Assembly (NCBI GenBank): GCA_036874045.1 | Contig: JAZBRI010000011.1 | Coordinates: 14,712,001-14,776,000, forward strand | Direction: 5' to 3' | DNA from: Cymodocea nodosa | Taxonomy: Eukaryota > Streptophyta > Magnoliopsida > Alismatales > Cymodoceaceae | DNA: 64,000 nucleotides | Part shown: piece after piece, positions 10,201 through 62,673 of the stretch | How positions within the stretch are numbered: position 1 is the stretch's first letter | Layout: each line of letters begins with the position of its first letter | The notes under the pieces: model-generated | The model's input: only the letters and a program-made list of their open reading frames with translations | The model's database searches: none | What the model was told of the DNA's origin: nothing | Made by a program: the position numbers and the translations under genes

Positions 10201-11880
10201 CTGCAAAATAACTGTGTGCATTTTATGACATGTATTGGATGTTGTAAACTTGCAGTTCGCAGAAAAAGGCCACATATTTGTCACTGTCCATCTTGTTGAG
10301 GAGGTAATGAACTTGATACAGGCAGAAATTGGATTTGATTCCAAGAATACTTTGAGTGGCTTACCTGTTGTAAATGGAAGGCAAAGCTGGGAACAACTCA
10401 ACATTTTCAATCAAGGCTTTGTGCCTCAGAACCCAGTCTCCCTAACTTCTGATCAAATCAGGTTGATCATATCTGTTGAAGATACTGGGATTGGAATCCC
10501 ACGAGAAGCCCAGTCTCGAATATTCACACCCTTTATGCAGGTTGGACCCTCTGTTGCTCGCATTCATGGAGGTACTGGAATTGGGTTGAGTATTAGCAAG
10601 TGCTTGGTTAGCCTGATGAAAGGGGAGATTACAGTTGCGAGTGAACCACATATTGGTTCCACATTCACTTTTACTGTTGTCCTTGATAAGGGGCACACCA
10701 ACTCAAATGCTTATAGATCTCTGGAATTTCAAGGAATGAGAGCAATTGTGGTTGACCCAAGATTGGCTCGTTCATTAGTAACAAAATATCACCTCCAAAG
10801 ACTTGGAATTTCTGTAGAAATATTTACCCTTACCGATGAAGCCCTTTCTTACTTAACAAGTGGTAAATATGTTGTAAATATGGTACTTGTCGAGAAGGAT
10901 GTATGGTTCACAGATGTTACACTATGGTCCTCATTTTTTAGCAAGTTGAGGATGTTGGAAGGAACAAATCATCCTAAACCTTTTCTTCTGACCAACCCTG
11001 GCAGCTCTGCAAAGATTAATGCTGCAGATTCACTGGGTTTTTTCCCAACAGTAATTATGAAACCCCTTAGAGTAAGCATGTTGGCAGCATGTCTACAACG
11101 GGCTATGGGTGTTGGAGATAAGGTAAATCATGTCCATGAAGGGCTTCCTCTTTTATCCTTGCGCAGTCTTTTGAAAGGGAGGCATATTTTGGTTGTGGAT
11201 GACAACATAGTGAATTTAAGAGTGGCCGCTGGTGCTTTGAAGAAATATGGAGCTGAAGTTGCTTGCACTGACAGTGGGAAAAGGGCAATTGCAATGCTCG
11301 AACCACCACACATGTTTGATGCTTGTTTCATGGATATTCAGATGCCTGAAATGGATGGGTATGTGACATAACAACTACAAGCAAATTCTAATATTAGATT
11401 CTTAATATTTGCAAAAGACCACATGTTTGTTTTATTCTAGAATTTCTGAAATATGCATGTATCTTTTATGCTAGTTTAGAAACAATCTGTCGTTCCTTGT
11501 AATCTGTACCTGGTTGAGAGTTCCAAGTACTTCAGTAATTTTCCTTTTCTATATTGTGTTTCAAGTATTCCTTGTTCTGTTTATCTCTTGGTCTTACCAG
11601 ATTGTGTAAAATTCCTTTCAGTTTTCAAGCTACTAAAATCATACGTGAGATGGAAAGTAACGCAAATGAATGTAGAAAACACAGTGAAGTCTCATCTCAA
11701 TGTGGGAGTACCGCTCACTGGCACACTCCCATTTTGGCCATGACGGCTGATGTAATTCAAGCTACTCATGAAGAATGCCTTAAATGTGGGATGGATGGGT
11801 ATGTCTCCAAACCATTTGAAGGAGAACAGTTGTACAGGGAAGTGGCAAGATTTTTTTCTGCAACCAAGAAAACTCAATAG
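7290..11880 (+). CDS. HK3: Cytokinin receptor histidine kinase, HK3 class (ten coding exons)
   Basis: Hybrid sensor kinase: cytokinin binds the CHASE domain and phosphate passes to HPt proteins and response regulators; membrane (ER/plasma membrane) protein. Coding exons by my splicing: 7290-7685, 8006-8287, 8689-8858, 8951-9163, 9254-9440, 9545-9596, 9730-9959, 10082-10180, 10256-11358, 11622-11880. All introns obey GT/AG and phases agree, giving 996 residues, close to Arabidopsis AHK3 (about 1036). Order: membrane segment about 57-77; CHASE about 80-350; second membrane segment about 363-384; phospho-acceptor H423 in [11 protein letters not shown] box with N536 and N540; DTGIG at 619; GGTGIG at 648; degenerate receiver-like region about 703-825; true receiver with D858/D859, phospho-acceptor D903 ([11 protein letters not shown]), T952 and K974. 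All catalytic residues are present. Start ATG is the first in frame before the membrane segment. Oddity: W151 where relatives have Gly (PLTSGVAYA). Confidence 0.95.
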
Positions 11881-16997: not shown

Positions 16998-19900
16998 CTA
17001 AGAACCTGATTTCTTGAGGTATGCCATGAAACCAAAGCCAGCAACAAGAGCCGCGCCAGCTGCAACTGTTTTGTATGCAGATGCCCATGCATCTCTCTGA
17101 GCAAATTCCGTGCCGCCAGTTTCTGAACGTCTACGATGACCACCAGATCCTGTGTAGTCTAAGTACAGCTTCAACCCCTGTTGGAATATCAACATACAAT
17201 GTCAAATTACGTCAAGAATTTTATGTACCAAGAAATGCAAGATAGTGACCCAAGAACATTCATTAAAAAGTTGCATTGTAAATAAAGCTAATAATGAGAT
17301 GATAAGCATCCACCACTACCACCATCAGCACGATAAATAATGTCAACGGATAATTATAAAAGTTAAGTTAGAAGTTTTTTTCTCTTCATTGAGGATTTCG
17401 AGAAAGCAATTAAGCTGGAGCTCAAGTGCAAAACAGACATAAGATCAATTTCTCTGTCATCAACATTATTACAATAGAATTTTGATCCTACCCCTAGGCT
17501 AAGTGCTCCTCAATAGCTTCTCCAATCCCACTTTAAATAAATGTTCTCGAGTTTTCCCTTTCATTTAGGAACCAATAATCTTATAACAGATTTTCTTATG
17601 GAGATCTCCATTAGTTTATCTTTGAAATTGCATTGGACCACCTCACAATTGAAGCTTAAGGAGTTTTCTTCAAAATAAAATACTTACGAGGGTATTAGAG
17701 TCGTTTGAGAGTTTTAAAAGCCCCTGTGGCAACTTTGAATAGGACTTCTTTATGAAGTTTCTTTCAAAATAAAATACTTGCAAAGGGCACTAGGCATCCT
17801 AGTATTTAAAGGGCTTCAAGGTGTTATTAATTGTGTATACAATAAAATGTTCTTGGTAATGGAATTTGTTAGAATAATTGCACATTGATAAAAGAAAGGA
17901 TAGATCTTGTGGTTATATATAGAATTGTTCTATCCATAGTCAACTGATTTCAAATTAGATAAACACATTTCAAATGTGATATTAAAGTAAAAGAGACCCA
18001 AATGTCCCTAAATCCATACACATCTATATGTTCTGAAATAGAAACTTAGGACTTAAAACGAAAACTACAAGAGAAAGGAAATGTTAAATTAAGTCATACA
18101 TTGAGCAAATTGAGGATAAAACTTATAGTCACATAAAAAAGAATCTTCCCACTTATAAACAATTGATTTTATTTGGATATCCACATTTTAACATTACTTC
18201 TCTAACCTTCACAAGTGATTGTGCATGAAGGATCAGTACCAATATTTTTATTCAAAAGTGTATATAGTAATCTATGGTGAGAAGGTATGATTTCTCACAA
18301 GTGTATATAGTAATTCACAAGTGATTATATTGTGGCTAGATACTGAAGGTTCAAATTGTAAAAATAATCTCTTCCCATGGAGATAAGGTTGCAAGCAAGT
18401 AAAACCTCACTAGACCCAAAATGCATAGGTTGCATCAAGTTTGCCTTTATTTCAGTTTTAAAAGTCATTTTTGAATATCCATGGCATAAAAAATTTAAAA
18501 TTGGCAGTGCATAGTATGCAACAAAAGCTTGAATTTGCCTACTAGTTGGACAACTTGACTAATCGTAGATGCACAAGATGATGGAACAAAGTGATCACTG
18601 AAAATTGGAAAAAATAATTACAAATTATTACATCTATTTCTACAACCATCCCATGACAAATAATCCTAACGATTCAAGTTCCTTTAGGTGAGTGGAGAGC
18701 AAGATACCCATGAAGCTGACTTACAGACTTATTCTGGAGTGTGTGGAATGGGTAGCTTCTTCCACCTGATGGGGAAACCCTAGACTGATTTCTTCTAAGT
18801 TTGTCAACAAACACCTTTTTTCATTGCAGTGATATCTCTTACAGGAATCACTTTCTAACTCCAATTATACTGCTCGCAAATTCTCTTAAACGACCTTTCA
18901 ATGTGCTGAAGTCAAGGCCTAAAAAAGGACAAACTAGTATATGAGGATCCCACTGAGAACCCTATGATATGTTCCTAAACAAGAGGTTCATTTCCTTCTC
19001 ATTGTCGATATGCGTGAAAATCCCAATCCATGGTGGGCCAACCTTGCACGCACGCACACACGCGTACACACACAAATGAATATTGATAGGGGGAACTCAC
19101 CTTCACATTAGTCTGTTTATACAACATGATGGTGCAATATGATTAGATTACAAAATCATGACAACTGTACCCATGACCTAAGAGGTACATTCACTTGCAA
19201 GCTTTTAGTGGGAACCATTAGACAACATTGCCACAACGACCATTCAACCTAAACTGCTACCATTTTATTTGTGTAACTGACTTCTAGACACCATAGTTTC
19301 ATGCCAATATGATTGGATTACATAATCATGATACTAACTGTACCAATGACCTAAGAGGTACTCACATTCACTTGCAAGCTTTTAGTGGGAACCATCAGAC
19401 AACATTGCCACAACGTACAGTCAAGTTAAACTGCTACCATTTTCTTCGTATAACCAACTTCTAGACACCAGAGTTTCACTGAAACGCATGCCCATTGACT
19501 TTTCCAATATCATCCGCAGCCAACTACAATGGCATGAATCATCCTGATTCCTGAATATGATACCATGGTACTCACTTTTGTATGACATCTTTTTTCCATC
19601 CTCAACTGACATCTCAATCTCTTAAGAATGTACTTCACATTTCTACTTGTAGATGAATATCCTGTATCTCAGTATTCTTGATTATAATGTCTATTACTCA
19701 TCCTAATCCTTTCTTTTTGTGGGGAATGAGGGAGCTTCACACCTACTTCACAGATTTCAAACTTTGATTCTTCTTGGTAAACACGTTAAGGTGCCAAGGC
19801 AACCAAGCAGTAAAATCTAAACCCCAGATGTTGCCTACAAACCAATTAAAAATTTTAAAAAATATTTTTTTGATATTATTATTAACTACTTTATGTCTTT

Positions 19901-36909: not shown

Positions 36910-36982
36910 TTCCGTTGCCGGGACTCGAACCCGGGTCTTTCGGGTGAGAGCCGAATATCCTAACCAACTAGACTACAACGGA
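36910..36982 (-). tRNA. tRNA-Glu (CTC anticodon)
   Basis: The reverse strand folds as a complete 73-nt tRNA: acceptor TCCGTTG paired with CAACGGA plus discriminator A; D arm with AGTTGGTTAGGAT; anticodon stem TTCGG/CCGAA around loop CTCTCAC, anticodon CTC; T arm CCCGG GTTCGAGT CCGGG type with the box B GGTTCGAGTCC. No intron. A T run follows shortly downstream of the 3' end on the minus strand. The gene looks intact and nuclear in type. Confidence 0.96.
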
Positions 36983-48700: not shown

Positions 48701-50277
48701 TTTTGCACTTTAATAACTTCTTAAAATGTTAACACCCAACTTAAAATAATTGACCATAAGTAGATAGATCTTTCCTTATATATGTGTGTGTGCGTGTGTA
48801 TGCTTGTAAGTCCTATCCTCAATCTTATCAATGTTCTAATCAAACCCTAAAATAGAAAAGAAGTAGCTCAATGTAAATCACTTACTAAAACCAACCTTTG
48901 TCTTGCTTCTCGTTGGAAGCTCATGTTTCTTAACAAAAAGGAATGTCAAATACTGAAATAGATCAAATGACCTAAAACTTAGGCAATGAAAAGTTTTCGC
49001 AAAATACTAGAAACAAGATGTAGATATTTCAAACTTTTTATCCTTAAAATTGGCATTTTGTTAAAGTTCGAAATTGGCAAGTTGAGTTGGTCCACCAATA
49101 TTAGTCTTTTGCACATTAATGAAGGTCTTGCTCTAATATCAAGCTAACGCAGTCTTCTATTCTATTGTAAGGAAAAAATCTTGAGTTCAAACTCAAACGT
49201 CATTATCAAAGCATTCTAAAGTCTTGGTCTTCAATGAAAAGATGGAGGAATAATAAAAAAAGAATGACAAGATAAGGGAGAAGGCTCATCAGAGTATAAA
49301 TTATACAACATGATAAGTCTACCAACAAGAGAACAAGATTGATCTTTCACTCTACCATGACGAGGAGACGTTGAGTTCAAACTAAAGAAGATAAAAACAG
49401 TACCATTGTCAAAAAAAGACCATAACCGAGAAAAATAACTAAGAAGGGTTCGGTTGCGATGGGGGATGGACTCCAGCTAGTGAAAACGATGTAATAATGA
49501 ACACAAAAGTTCCAGCTGGTAGCTGCTGCAGAAAACAGACCGACCATCAAAACGATAAAAACAGGAAGCTCACACTTGTGTTGCAGACCGCATAGTCTAG
49601 TATTCAAAAGGAAAATATAAATCAACATATCAAGAACAGCTACAGAAGCCGCAAAAGCATCCTAAAAATCTTAGAAAGAAAAAACTATAAGAAATTAAGG
49701 AGAAGTATTTCTACACAAAAACACTACCAATATCAGAAGAAGAAAAAAATCTAAGAAAAGAGTTCTTTAGATGAAACAACATTTTTTTAAAAATCAATAA
49801 CAACGAATCCAGAAGCCGAATCTGATCAAAATCATTGACAACAATGCATTACCTACTACACTGCTGACAGAACCTCTGCTCCTGGCCGCCGACCAACACA
49901 ATCGGAGTCTTGGAGTGGGCCTCGCAGACCTTGTGCCGGCGGTGGTATTCCCTGCAGCTGCTGAGATCAGATTGACATCCGTCGACGAGACACGACACGT
50001 TCTGACTCCCGTTGCTCGGTGTCCGGGCCCTCTTCGACGTGCCCGACGGAGGCACCGCCAGCGTCGCCGAGGACCTCACTTGCTCCTTCCACTTGCTCGT
50101 GGAGCCTAGGTCACCTAGTCCACCGAGCTTGAGGTCGAAATCGAGTCCACTCGTCTGGCCCCGGAGGTTACCACTGCTGGAAGCGGCTACCATCGAGCCA
50201 ATGTTGGGTTCGGGCCCTTCGGGGAGATGGTCCAATTCTGAGAGATCCCACGCTGGAAGCTTCGTTCCCCAATCCAT
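45713..50277 (-). CDS. SPL: SBP-box transcription factor, SPL13/SPL16 type (three coding exons)
   Basis: Exons on -: 50277-49853, 47625-47495, 46380-45713, all GT/AG with matching phases; 407 residues. The N-terminus [15 protein letters not shown] and the motif FDLKLGG are typical of the SPL13/SPL16 branch. SBP domain about 94-171: first zinc site C96, C101, C118, H121; second zinc site C137, C140, H144, C156; overlapping nuclear signal [17 protein letters not shown]. The first intron falls inside the SBP domain after CQQCSR, as in the family. The last exon has the [11 protein letters not shown] peptide, encoded by the miR156 site, and ends GILPFSW like relatives (PFHWE). Expected role: nuclear DNA binding to GTAC elements, controlling phase change, inflorescence or grain/fruit shape. 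Introns are 2.2 and 1.1 kb. All zinc ligands are intact. Confidence 0.94.
46043..46062 (-). promoter_or_regulatory. miR156/157 target site in the SPL coding sequence
   Basis: The minus strand reads GTGCTCTCTCTCTTCTGTCA, the canonical SPL target sequence. It pairs with miR156 with a single mismatch, as in most SPL genes. It sits in exon 3 and encodes ALSLLSS. It predicts that the mRNA is cut in juvenile tissue and accumulates with age. Confidence 0.95.
48490..48835 (+). repeat. Dispersed repeat copies in SPL intron 1
   Basis: AACACCCAACTTAAAATAAT followed by TGACCATAAGTAGATAGATC (48729-48768) is a diverged member of the same family as the copies near 12700 and 25285. A second, weaker piece starts near 48487 (ATCTAACTCAAAATAAAAG). 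The second copy is followed by a TATATGTGTGTGTG tract. Confidence 0.45.
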
Positions 50278-60067: not shown

Positions 60068-60799
60068 ATGGCATATACGCCACCTTCCCACCTCCTCCTC
60101 CAACTCCTTCCTTTCCTCCTTCCCCTCTTCTCCACCACATCCGTCGCCACCAACTACACCGTGGGCGGCGACGCCGGTTGGGTCTTCTCCGCCTCGACCA
60201 ACGCCTCCGCCACCGACTACACCGCATGGGCTGCTGCCTCTCTTACATTCCACCTCGGCGATTTCCTGAGTACGCGTTCTAGCAACCTGTCTCCAACACC
60301 CAATTCTCTTCTTTAGTGCCCTTTCCCCCCTCCCTTTTTCTTGGTTTTGTCGTTTGTGCCTACATGATGGGTGGAAGCCTTGACGTGGACTACAGTATTC
60401 AACAAGGGCGCGAATTCGACGGTGATCCAGACGTACAACGCGACGACGTACAGGTTGTGTAGCCTTGAACAGGACTACGGGAACCTGACGTCGCAGTTCG
60501 GCGTCGACGACGTCGAGGAAGACGGAGGAGCCGGTGGGATACCGGTGTCGCTGGTGAGGGAAGGGGATAATTACTTCTTCTCCTCCGCCGAGGAAGGCTT
60601 CCAGTGTAGGAGAGGGATGAGATTCCAGATCAAGGTTCGGCATGGAAACGTCCTCCCTCCCCCTTCCGCTCTTCCGCCGACGGTGTTCACTCCGGAGGGG
60701 GGTCATGTGGCGTTCGACGCCGGCAGGGGCGGCGTGGTAGGAGGTTGGAAGTGGTGGTGGGGAATCACTTCGTGTGTGGTGCTGGTGTGGTCCGTGTGA
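60068..60799 (+). CDS. Phytocyanin-like (early-nodulin-like) GPI-anchored protein lacking copper ligands (two exons)
   Basis: Exons 60068-60269 and 60396-60799 with a 126-bp intron (CTGA|GTACGC, ACTACAG|TATTC) give 201 residues. Residues 1-28 form a signal peptide. The mature part starts TNYTVGGDAGWVFS, the usual plastocyanin-like start, then YTAWAAASLTFHLGDFLIFN and TYNATTYRLC. C89 and C138 can form the conserved disulfide. The copper ligands are absent: Ser75 replaces the first His (usual HNV), Ser/Ala at 130-132 the Cys, and Gln137 the second His; M142 remains. This defines the non-copper early-nodulin-like group. Several N-glycosylation sites (N29, N45, N74, N82, N97) and a hydrophobic C-terminal tail from about 180 suggest a GPI anchor. 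An acidic Gly-rich insertion lies at about 104-116. The start at 60068 is preferred over an in-frame ATG at 59978. Confidence 0.88.
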
Positions 60800-61957
60800 T
60801 GGCCACCGACGCATTTGGTGGCGTATCTTCCGCATCTTCTTCTGATGTTGACCTTTTTCTAATTTATTATTTTCGCTACATTTCTTTCTTTCTTTTCCCT
60901 TCTACTACATCATTTCTTTCTTTCTTTCTTTCTTGGTTGGGCTTATTCATTGTTATACATATCTCTATGGACAGCAATTACAGGCATCATTTGATTTGTT
61001 TTATTTTTTGCGAGCGACTTTGCTTATCAAATTTCATGATTGAAATCAAAAAACTTCAAATAAAAAAATACTAGAATTATAAAAAAAATCCAAAGCCGTA
61101 CTGTGAGTCATACACATCATCGTCGATCTTTTTTTCCCAGAAATGTTCATGGAATATTAATTCCTTTTGCAAATAAAAAAGCGTACGTAAATAAAAATAA
61201 ATGACCTCAATTATATACGAAAAATACATCTGTGCATGGTACGTTTTTGGAGAAAGAAGTTTCAGTCTTTCAGAAGATAAAAAAAACAACAATTTCGCCT
61301 AGCAAGAGATACAGAAGAGGCAGACAATCACAAACGAAGCAATTAGTTTTCGATGGGATTTGAATTCTTATATATTCTCCTCCATTCTAATAATTCGATT
61401 ATGGCGTGCATGCGTTGTCATTTCATGATCAATTGCCTGTGAATCCGCACGTTCATTTTGTGGCGATCAATTTTCCATATATCATATACTTCAGATTTAT
61501 CGGTTATCTTAGCGTTTCAATTTTAAACATTTAAATTTTATTTTTTTATGATGGTGAGTTTTTGCTTAAATTCAAACGTAGGGTTTCTTCTCACGTGATG
61601 GAATGAAAAATCAACTATAACATCTGATTATACGTTGGTCAATAAGATTAAATTAAAAAAAGAAAGAATCTGTAACTATAAAAAGGTGGGTATTTCTTTA
61701 TATACGAAGGAGACATGGATCGATGTTATGAGAATTTTTCTTGATTTTCTGGTGTGTTGTAATCCGGTTGGCATTTTTCTTTGAGAATATATGACTTCTC
61801 GGTTAAACTGGTCTCACGAGACCCTTTTATTGAGTTTAAGTTGGGTGGGGTTGATGGTGAAGTTTGACCCACTTCCACCTCCTTGGTCCCTTGCCCTCGT
61901 TAACTTCTACTTGTCAACATGAGTTCTTGAAAGGATTAGGAAGTTATTTTTGTTTCT
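60800..61957. other. Intergenic DNA
   Basis: 3' flank of the phytocyanin-like gene with a (CTTT)n tract at 60914-60934, then AT-rich DNA. No gene seen. Confidence 0.6.
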
Positions 61958-62066
61958 TGTTGGGTGTCCAACATGTGTTGGTTGGTGACAAGGAGACATG
62001 ATTGAAAACTAGGGGCTTAATGCTTAGGATTATACTTGAACTCGTAGACTTAAGTGCTGCTAACCT

Positions 62067-62266
62067 TTTAAGAGGAGTTGATGAATCTTTACTATCACTT
62101 CGGACCTTTAAGAGGAGTTGATGAACCTTTACCATCACTTTGAGCATTTAGGAGGAGTTGATGAACATTTACCATCACTTTGAGCCTTTAAGAGGAGTTG
62201 ATGAACATTTACCATCACTTTGAGCCTTTAAGAGGAGACGATGAACCTTTACTATCACTTTAGGGT
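62067..62266 (+). repeat. Five 40-bp tandem repeats inside the TRIM 5' LTR
   Basis: Units start with TTTAAGAGGAGTTGATGAAC at 62067, 62107, 62147, 62187 and 62227, each exactly 40 bp, differing at a few bases. The 3' LTR holds a single, more diverged unit (about 62537-62575). The array therefore expanded in one LTR only, most simply after insertion. Confidence 0.92.
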
Positions 62267-62299
62267 TTTGACACTGTGACAGTACTCGATCCTAATAAG

Positions 62300-62312
62300 T
62301 GGTGTCAGATTT
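62300..62312 (+). other. Primer binding site of the TRIM element
   Basis: TGGTGTCAGATTT, two bases inside the 5' LTR end, differs by one base in its first ten from TGGTATCAGA, the complement of the 3' end of initiator tRNA-Met, the usual plant LTR-retrotransposon primer. Confidence 0.75.
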
Positions 62313-62363
62313 GGGAGTCATGGGTTAGAGTCTTAGCGAGCACATTTGTATATACGTGTATTT

Positions 62364-62373
62364 GAGGGGGGAT
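62364..62373 (+). other. Polypurine tract of the TRIM element
   Basis: GAGGGGGGA directly abuts the 3' LTR start TGTTGGG at 62374, the expected place for plus-strand priming. Confidence 0.8.
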
Positions 62374-62673
62374 TGTTGGGTGTTCAACATGTGTTGGTAG
62401 TGCGTGTGTTCCAATTAAGTCACCTATGTTAGAGGAGGTGTCTCATGCTATACCATAACAAAGGGATTTGATTGAAAGCTAGCGATTGAATGACTATGGT
62501 CACACTTGAACTTGTGGACTTAGGTGCTGTTGATCCATTAAGAAGAGTTGAGAAACCTTTACCATTATCTTAGAATTTTGACAAGGTGGTAGCACCTGAT
62601 CCTAACATTTCTTAAAAGTGATTAGGTGGTCCTATTGTGTTTTCTAAACTTAAAACTTTTGAGTTGTGGGATG

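Follow-up and report, generated by a model that had tools for sequence, protein, structure and literature searches.

A 650-bp element at positions 61958-62607 of the window, the 64-kb stretch of Cymodocea nodosa DNA analysed here, is an old TRIM of the ordinary plant type. It is almost certainly a copy of a non-autonomous LTR retrotransposon in a plant genome, and decayed Ty1-copia elements elsewhere in that genome carry LTRs of the same type. The kind is well known and the element adds no new kind to it. Taken as a whole, an account in which a TRIM with a copia mobiliser inserted long ago, decayed and underwent expansion of a 40-bp unit is very probable.

Structure of the element

The element is bounded by direct terminal repeats (TGTTGGG...CCTAAYA) of 340 and 234 bp, and its features are as follows.

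61953-61957, no strand: left copy of the target site duplication (TSD), TTTCT, by direct reading
61958-62297, plus strand: left (5') LTR, 340 bp, TGTTGGG...CCTAATA, by direct reading and LTR-versus-LTR alignment
62067-62261, plus strand: 40-bp unit repeated 4.9 times within the left LTR, with a single unit in the right LTR
62298-62373, plus strand: 76-bp non-coding interior that includes a degenerate B-box-like stretch GGTTAGAGTCT
62300-62309, plus strand: primer binding site (PBS) TGGTGTCAGA, initiator-Met type, one change from TGGTATCAGA
62364-62372, plus strand: polypurine tract (PPT) GAGGGGGGA, by direct reading
62374-62607, plus strand: right (3') LTR, 234 bp, TGTTGGG...CCTAACA, by direct reading
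62608-62612, no strand: right copy of the TSD, TTTCT, by direct reading

The terminal repeats, the TTTCT on both sides, the PBS and the polypurine tract were all read where an earlier note on this DNA had placed them. Two bases, AG, separate the left LTR from the PBS, and a single T lies between the polypurine tract and the right LTR. The PBS form TGGTATCAGA was seen in other copies, TGGTGTCAGA being its one-mismatch version, and we take the initiator tRNA-Met to be the corresponding primer. The left LTR ends in TA, as against the TG...CA-type norm, and the right LTR ends in CA. At this base composition, two given places would agree over 5 bp by chance with a probability of about 0.0014. The element was also found to be devoid of coding capacity, as had been claimed, the longest stop-free frame in it being 63 aa.

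The left LTR is long partly because of the 4.9 copies of the 40-bp unit, while a stretch of about 59 bp found in the right LTR is missing from it; therefore, the two LTRs differ by large indels besides substitutions. Alignment of one LTR with the other gave mainly three blocks without gaps (108, 76 and 25 bp), with 74, 74 and 96% identity, respectively (best E 7e-17). With the tandem array left out, the pair was 76% identical over 175 ungapped columns, and the changes were strongly transition-biased (33 transitions, 9 transversions; K2P = 0.31). The element is called old, in agreement with the earlier note, because its LTRs are only 76% identical. No further copies were detected within the 64-kb window, the remaining BLAST rows being internal repeats and one 14-bp match (E 0.42).

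A B-box-like stretch is present at 62322-62332 of the window and in the interiors of relatives, about 12 bases after the PBS. When scored against GGTTCGANTCC, which we take to be the B-box consensus, 17 of 22 interiors fitted at 9 or more of the 11 positions, compared to 2% of shuffles. A tRNA-derived interior was nevertheless rejected, as ARAGORN reported no tRNA in nine loci in spite of the B-box-like motif; nor did the stretch give a match in Rfam. Within the 40-bp array (62112-62231), six weak matches to C/D-box snoRNAs were obtained, the best with E 0.04 and all below the gathering score, and these are probably due to chance.

Elsewhere in the window we observed parts of a cytokinin receptor gene of the CRE1 type (10235-11371), a 177-bp unit present as two tandem copies, 87% alike (19135-19478), a tRNA-Glu gene (36910-36982) and, on the minus strand, a piece of an SBP-box gene (49849-50277). 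The receptor and SBP genes mark the host as a plant. Two open frames at 60072-60799 end about 1.2 kb upstream of the element; they presumably resemble a phytocyanin gene, the second frame being without a Pfam match.

Copies in the genome

The earlier note, which named the element a TRIM, looked to other genomic copies with coincident ends, and the genome-wide search (374.6 Mb in 28 contigs) revealed many, with the termini TGTTGGG/CCTAACA and several with exact 5-bp TSDs of their own. With the element as query at least 64 matches were obtained (40 of 82 first-look candidates were scored), and the signature of PBS plus interior occurred at 65 places in the genome as compared to none in the control. 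Twenty regions were fetched, and these contained 21 locus/strand LTR groups besides that of the window, of which 15 comprised at least two LTRs and 6 a single LTR. LTR length was 230-235 bp in 23 of the 37 LTRs of the fetched regions, and the interior was 74-79 bp in 13 of the 15 multi-LTR groups, the two exceptions being L028, with an interior of 61 bp, and L015, with an overlapping placement. Where two LTRs were complete or nearly so, the relatives measured about 500-611 bp.

Exact 5-bp TSDs at the outer ends were found in five of the 15 multi-LTR groups (L015, L016, L018, L021 and L024; chance about 0.0014 each), that of L015 being a simple AT stretch. The TSD had one mismatch in two groups (L011 and L017) and differed at 2 to 5 positions in the other eight, through decay or misplaced outer ends. 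None of the six single-LTR groups had an exact TSD. L014 carries three LTRs in tandem, and at L010 two TRIM copies adjoin each other in inverted orientation. The element is thus identified as a TRIM because it has many genome copies with interiors of 74-79 bp and with their own 5-bp target duplications at the same ends; it possesses two LTRs, PBS, PPT and TSD, is gene-less, and belongs to a multicopy family with the same ends. Its 650 bp, like the sizes of its relatives, is well below 1-1.5 kb, and its 5-bp TSD falls in the 4-6 bp range expected of TRIMs.

Judged by its sequences, the family is a star of old copies. LTR pairs within elements of the fetched regions were 59-83% identical, the median between elements being 70%, and in only 8 of 33 cases did an LTR lie closest to its sister; the pairing of LTRs therefore rests on geometry and TSDs and not on sequence. 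Younger copies were obtained as well. The LTR of one of them, L041, gave at least 67 matches when used as query, the best besides the query itself being 85-93% identical (40 of 68 candidates scored). The LTR pair of L041 was 92% identical with TSDs TGAAT/TGAAC, and that of L044 was 90% identical with TSDs TTTGT/TTTGT; among the younger copies the TSD was exact in L044, L039 and L046.

A second TRIM-like family (TGTTGAG...CCTAACA), with an LTR of about 226 bp and an interior of about 80 bp, was noticed at L039:1285-1816 and L046:1285-2541, where the TSDs were exact (ACTTG in L039 and AACAT in L046). In L046 the whole second-family element lies inside a tandem duplication of about 726 bp, and L043 and L045 hold partial copies of this family.

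Tandem arrays are known for Cassandra, which is likewise gene-less. Cassandra was rejected here, as no 5S rRNA match was found in the window element (matches up to E 5) or in a young copy. As regards a known family, a literature text search for short LTR/PBS strings retrieved no paper, such strings being seldom printed. The plant TRIM survey of Gao et al. 2016 (PMC4717578) gives 156 families with an average size of 685 bp and 5-bp TSDs. Its TRIMs resemble the present element in size, two LTRs, PBS, PPT, 5-bp TSD, absence of genes, tandem arrays and near-gene setting, a likeness taken from the described features; the window copy differs by the 40-bp array in one LTR.

Larger Ty1-copia relatives

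We infer that the element was mobilised by another element. The larger partner sharing LTR ends that the earlier note had envisaged was found in part: large, decayed Ty1-copia relatives do exist, but an intact one was not found. Among the matches listed, same-strand LTR pairs were spaced 5.3, 5.3 and 7.9 kb apart (twice on C23 and once on C7), where about 0.05 pairs 1-10 kb apart are expected. The piece between the first C23 pair (L049) codes for parts of a Ty1-copia reverse transcriptase (RT; RVT_2, E 1.1e-28 and 6e-6) in interrupted frames; no solved structures were found for this RT piece. The C23 LTRs showed 86-90% identity with those of young TRIMs, 80% with L016 and 75-76% with the right LTR of the window.

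These large relatives are decayed Ty1-copia elements of about 5.5 kb, in which TRIM-type LTRs are linked to a gag leader and to reverse transcriptase, the 5' LTR running into the PBS and then into the gag leader. The junction of LTR and gag leader was present at at least ten places including the query's own, and at eight of them the LTR was complete or almost so (40 of 359 candidates scored). C23, C7, C15 and C3 agreed in the distance between the start of the LTR and the RT, which was 2647/2656 bases to the L049 match and 3000/3003/3011 bases to the RT frame. The copia body itself had at least 39 further long matches at 87-91% identity (40 scored of 1208 candidates).

All the partner features (LTR, PBS, PPT-side interior and coding sequence) occurred together only at C23:1117653-1123200, a copy with broken frames, and parts of them elsewhere. 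An intact partner was not seen, since among the 150 RT matches that were scored no open frame exceeded 676 aa, which is about half of a copia polyprotein. All evidence for the partner stems from copies that are decayed or were seen in part, and a single segmental duplication may account for the two on C23. Decayed gene-carrying relatives with the same ends hint at the origin of the TRIM or at its former mobiliser, and Ty1-copia probably was that mobiliser.

L029-L035 contained a large, abundant Ty1-copia whose LTRs measure about 1.8 kb (termini TGTTAGAACCCGAGTA...GATCCTAACA, PBS AATTGGTATCAGAGC), with gag and RVT_2 found in L034. It was rejected as the partner, as L029-L036 gave no TRIM match at E 1e-4 and only the termini, TGTTRG...GATCCTAACA, and the PBS are common to it and the TRIM.

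A second LTR-end/PBS motif and the origin of the TRIM

An LTR end followed by PBS and TRIM interior was found a second time, 82-95 bases before the 3' LTR, at six places with coding sequence or gag leader upstream (C23 twice, C7:17286964, C5:7025644, C13:9340629 and C1:15617809), the spacing to RT at C5 being about 1 kb too long. The same signature is also present at the expected 3' position of the C7:9656494 copy, the 3' LTR of which was absent among the matches listed. No full 234-bp LTR was seen before the second PBS among the matches listed, which fits a short remnant. Deletion between the first and the second PBS would leave exactly LTR-PBS-interior-PPT-LTR. At C13:9339193-9340712, where LTR and gag leader are present, the distance from the start of the 5' LTR to the second PBS is only about 1.4 kb; the locus resembles a deletion intermediate that lies half-way between coding element and TRIM.

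We propose that RNA of the element would be transcribed from its LTR, that reverse transcription would be primed by initiator tRNA-Met, and that the RNA would be copied and integrated by Ty1-copia proteins. The copia elements of about 5.5 kb with TRIM-type LTRs are candidate relatives, from which loss between the two LTR-end/PBS copies may have given rise to the TRIM; we lean towards this deletion rather than the reverse course. The window copy would have been inserted long ago, then decayed, and the 40-bp unit in its left LTR would have expanded thereafter.

A comparable case is known from rice. In the available part of the survey, a larger relative is given for only 11 of 289 TRIM subfamilies, and a duplicated LTR-end/PBS motif is described only for the rice OsajLTRA10 elements, in which a 25-bp motif, CGATCCTA(C/T)AA(G/T)TGGTATCAGAGCC, flanks the breakpoint on both sides and from which TRIM origin by internal deletion was inferred (PMC4717578). 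OsajRetroS10/OsajLTRA10 likewise pairs a small element with a Ty1-copia relative having a common LTR and interior, and the large element holds two copies of the motif, as it does here (PMC4717578). The printed rice motif is nearly the same as CGATCCTAACAAGTGGTATCAGAG of the young copies, the comparison being limited to the motif. The rice LTR measures 115 bp and the TRIM 408 bp, as against 234 and about 543 bp here, and the rice partner encodes a full protein, whereas no intact partner was seen in the present case (PMC4717578).

Alternative explanations

The large copia elements could instead be recombinants and not ancestors of the TRIM, an abundant copia body having been captured between the TRIM LTR end and the PBS, perhaps in tandem arrays. 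The gag leader occurs at 248 sites (3 or fewer mismatches) and the body in the long matches described above, compared to at least ten places with TRIM LTR and leader. In L042 and L017, which are ordinary copies of the copia body, another LTR precedes the gag leader, and thus that copia does not usually bear the TRIM LTR. With 90% identity to the C7 copy that has the TRIM LTR, the C23 body stands no nearer to it than to other copies. Moreover, TRIM-type interior lies directly upstream of the 5' LTR in four of the eight coding copies with whole LTRs (C23 twice, C13:9339193 and C3:20166921), so that tandem TRIM-copia arrays are involved. The other LTRs on L042 and L017, the 248 sites as compared to ten, and the tandem arrays make capture a serious rival. 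However, the same arrangement in rice was read as TRIM origin by internal deletion (PMC4717578). C23 and C7 also share the geometry of 5' LTR, leader, body and second PBS, as expected of one element transposed as a unit, and at 120 sites the leader is preceded by an LTR end that departs from the TRIM type by no more than 3 mismatches, so such ends may be commoner than ten places suggest. On balance we regard capture as a credible but less probable course.

Copia pieces are indeed found nested within TRIM LTRs (L042 and L048), and the large elements could accordingly be TRIMs interrupted by copia insertions unrelated to TRIM mobility. Nesting would not, however, bring the LTR end straight into a same-strand gag leader, with the PBS after the normal gap of two bases, at ten or more places, nor is agreement of the LTR-to-RT spacing at four loci expected from it, and we consider this explanation improbable. 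Chance placement of two diverged repeats around a fortuitous 5-bp match, for which the low identity and large indels of the window LTRs might speak, is refuted by the E value of the repeat alone (7e-17), by numerous copies that agree in ends and interior, and by the 65 signature sites against none in the control.

Significance

A further case with both a larger relative and a duplicated motif makes the origin of TRIMs, or their regain of genes, open to a tree-based test. More speculatively, and in our view with a low chance of being right, the LTR-end/PBS duplicate might serve this lineage of plant elements as a two-way recombination cassette: deletion between the copies would yield a TRIM, and a TRIM would regain genes by taking up a foreign copia body between LTR end and PBS. 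If so, an abundant copia whose normal LTRs are different would have acquired those of the TRIM in this genome, and the motif would be common to rice and the host plant because it is old. TRIMs would then be donors of LTRs and not only dead ends.
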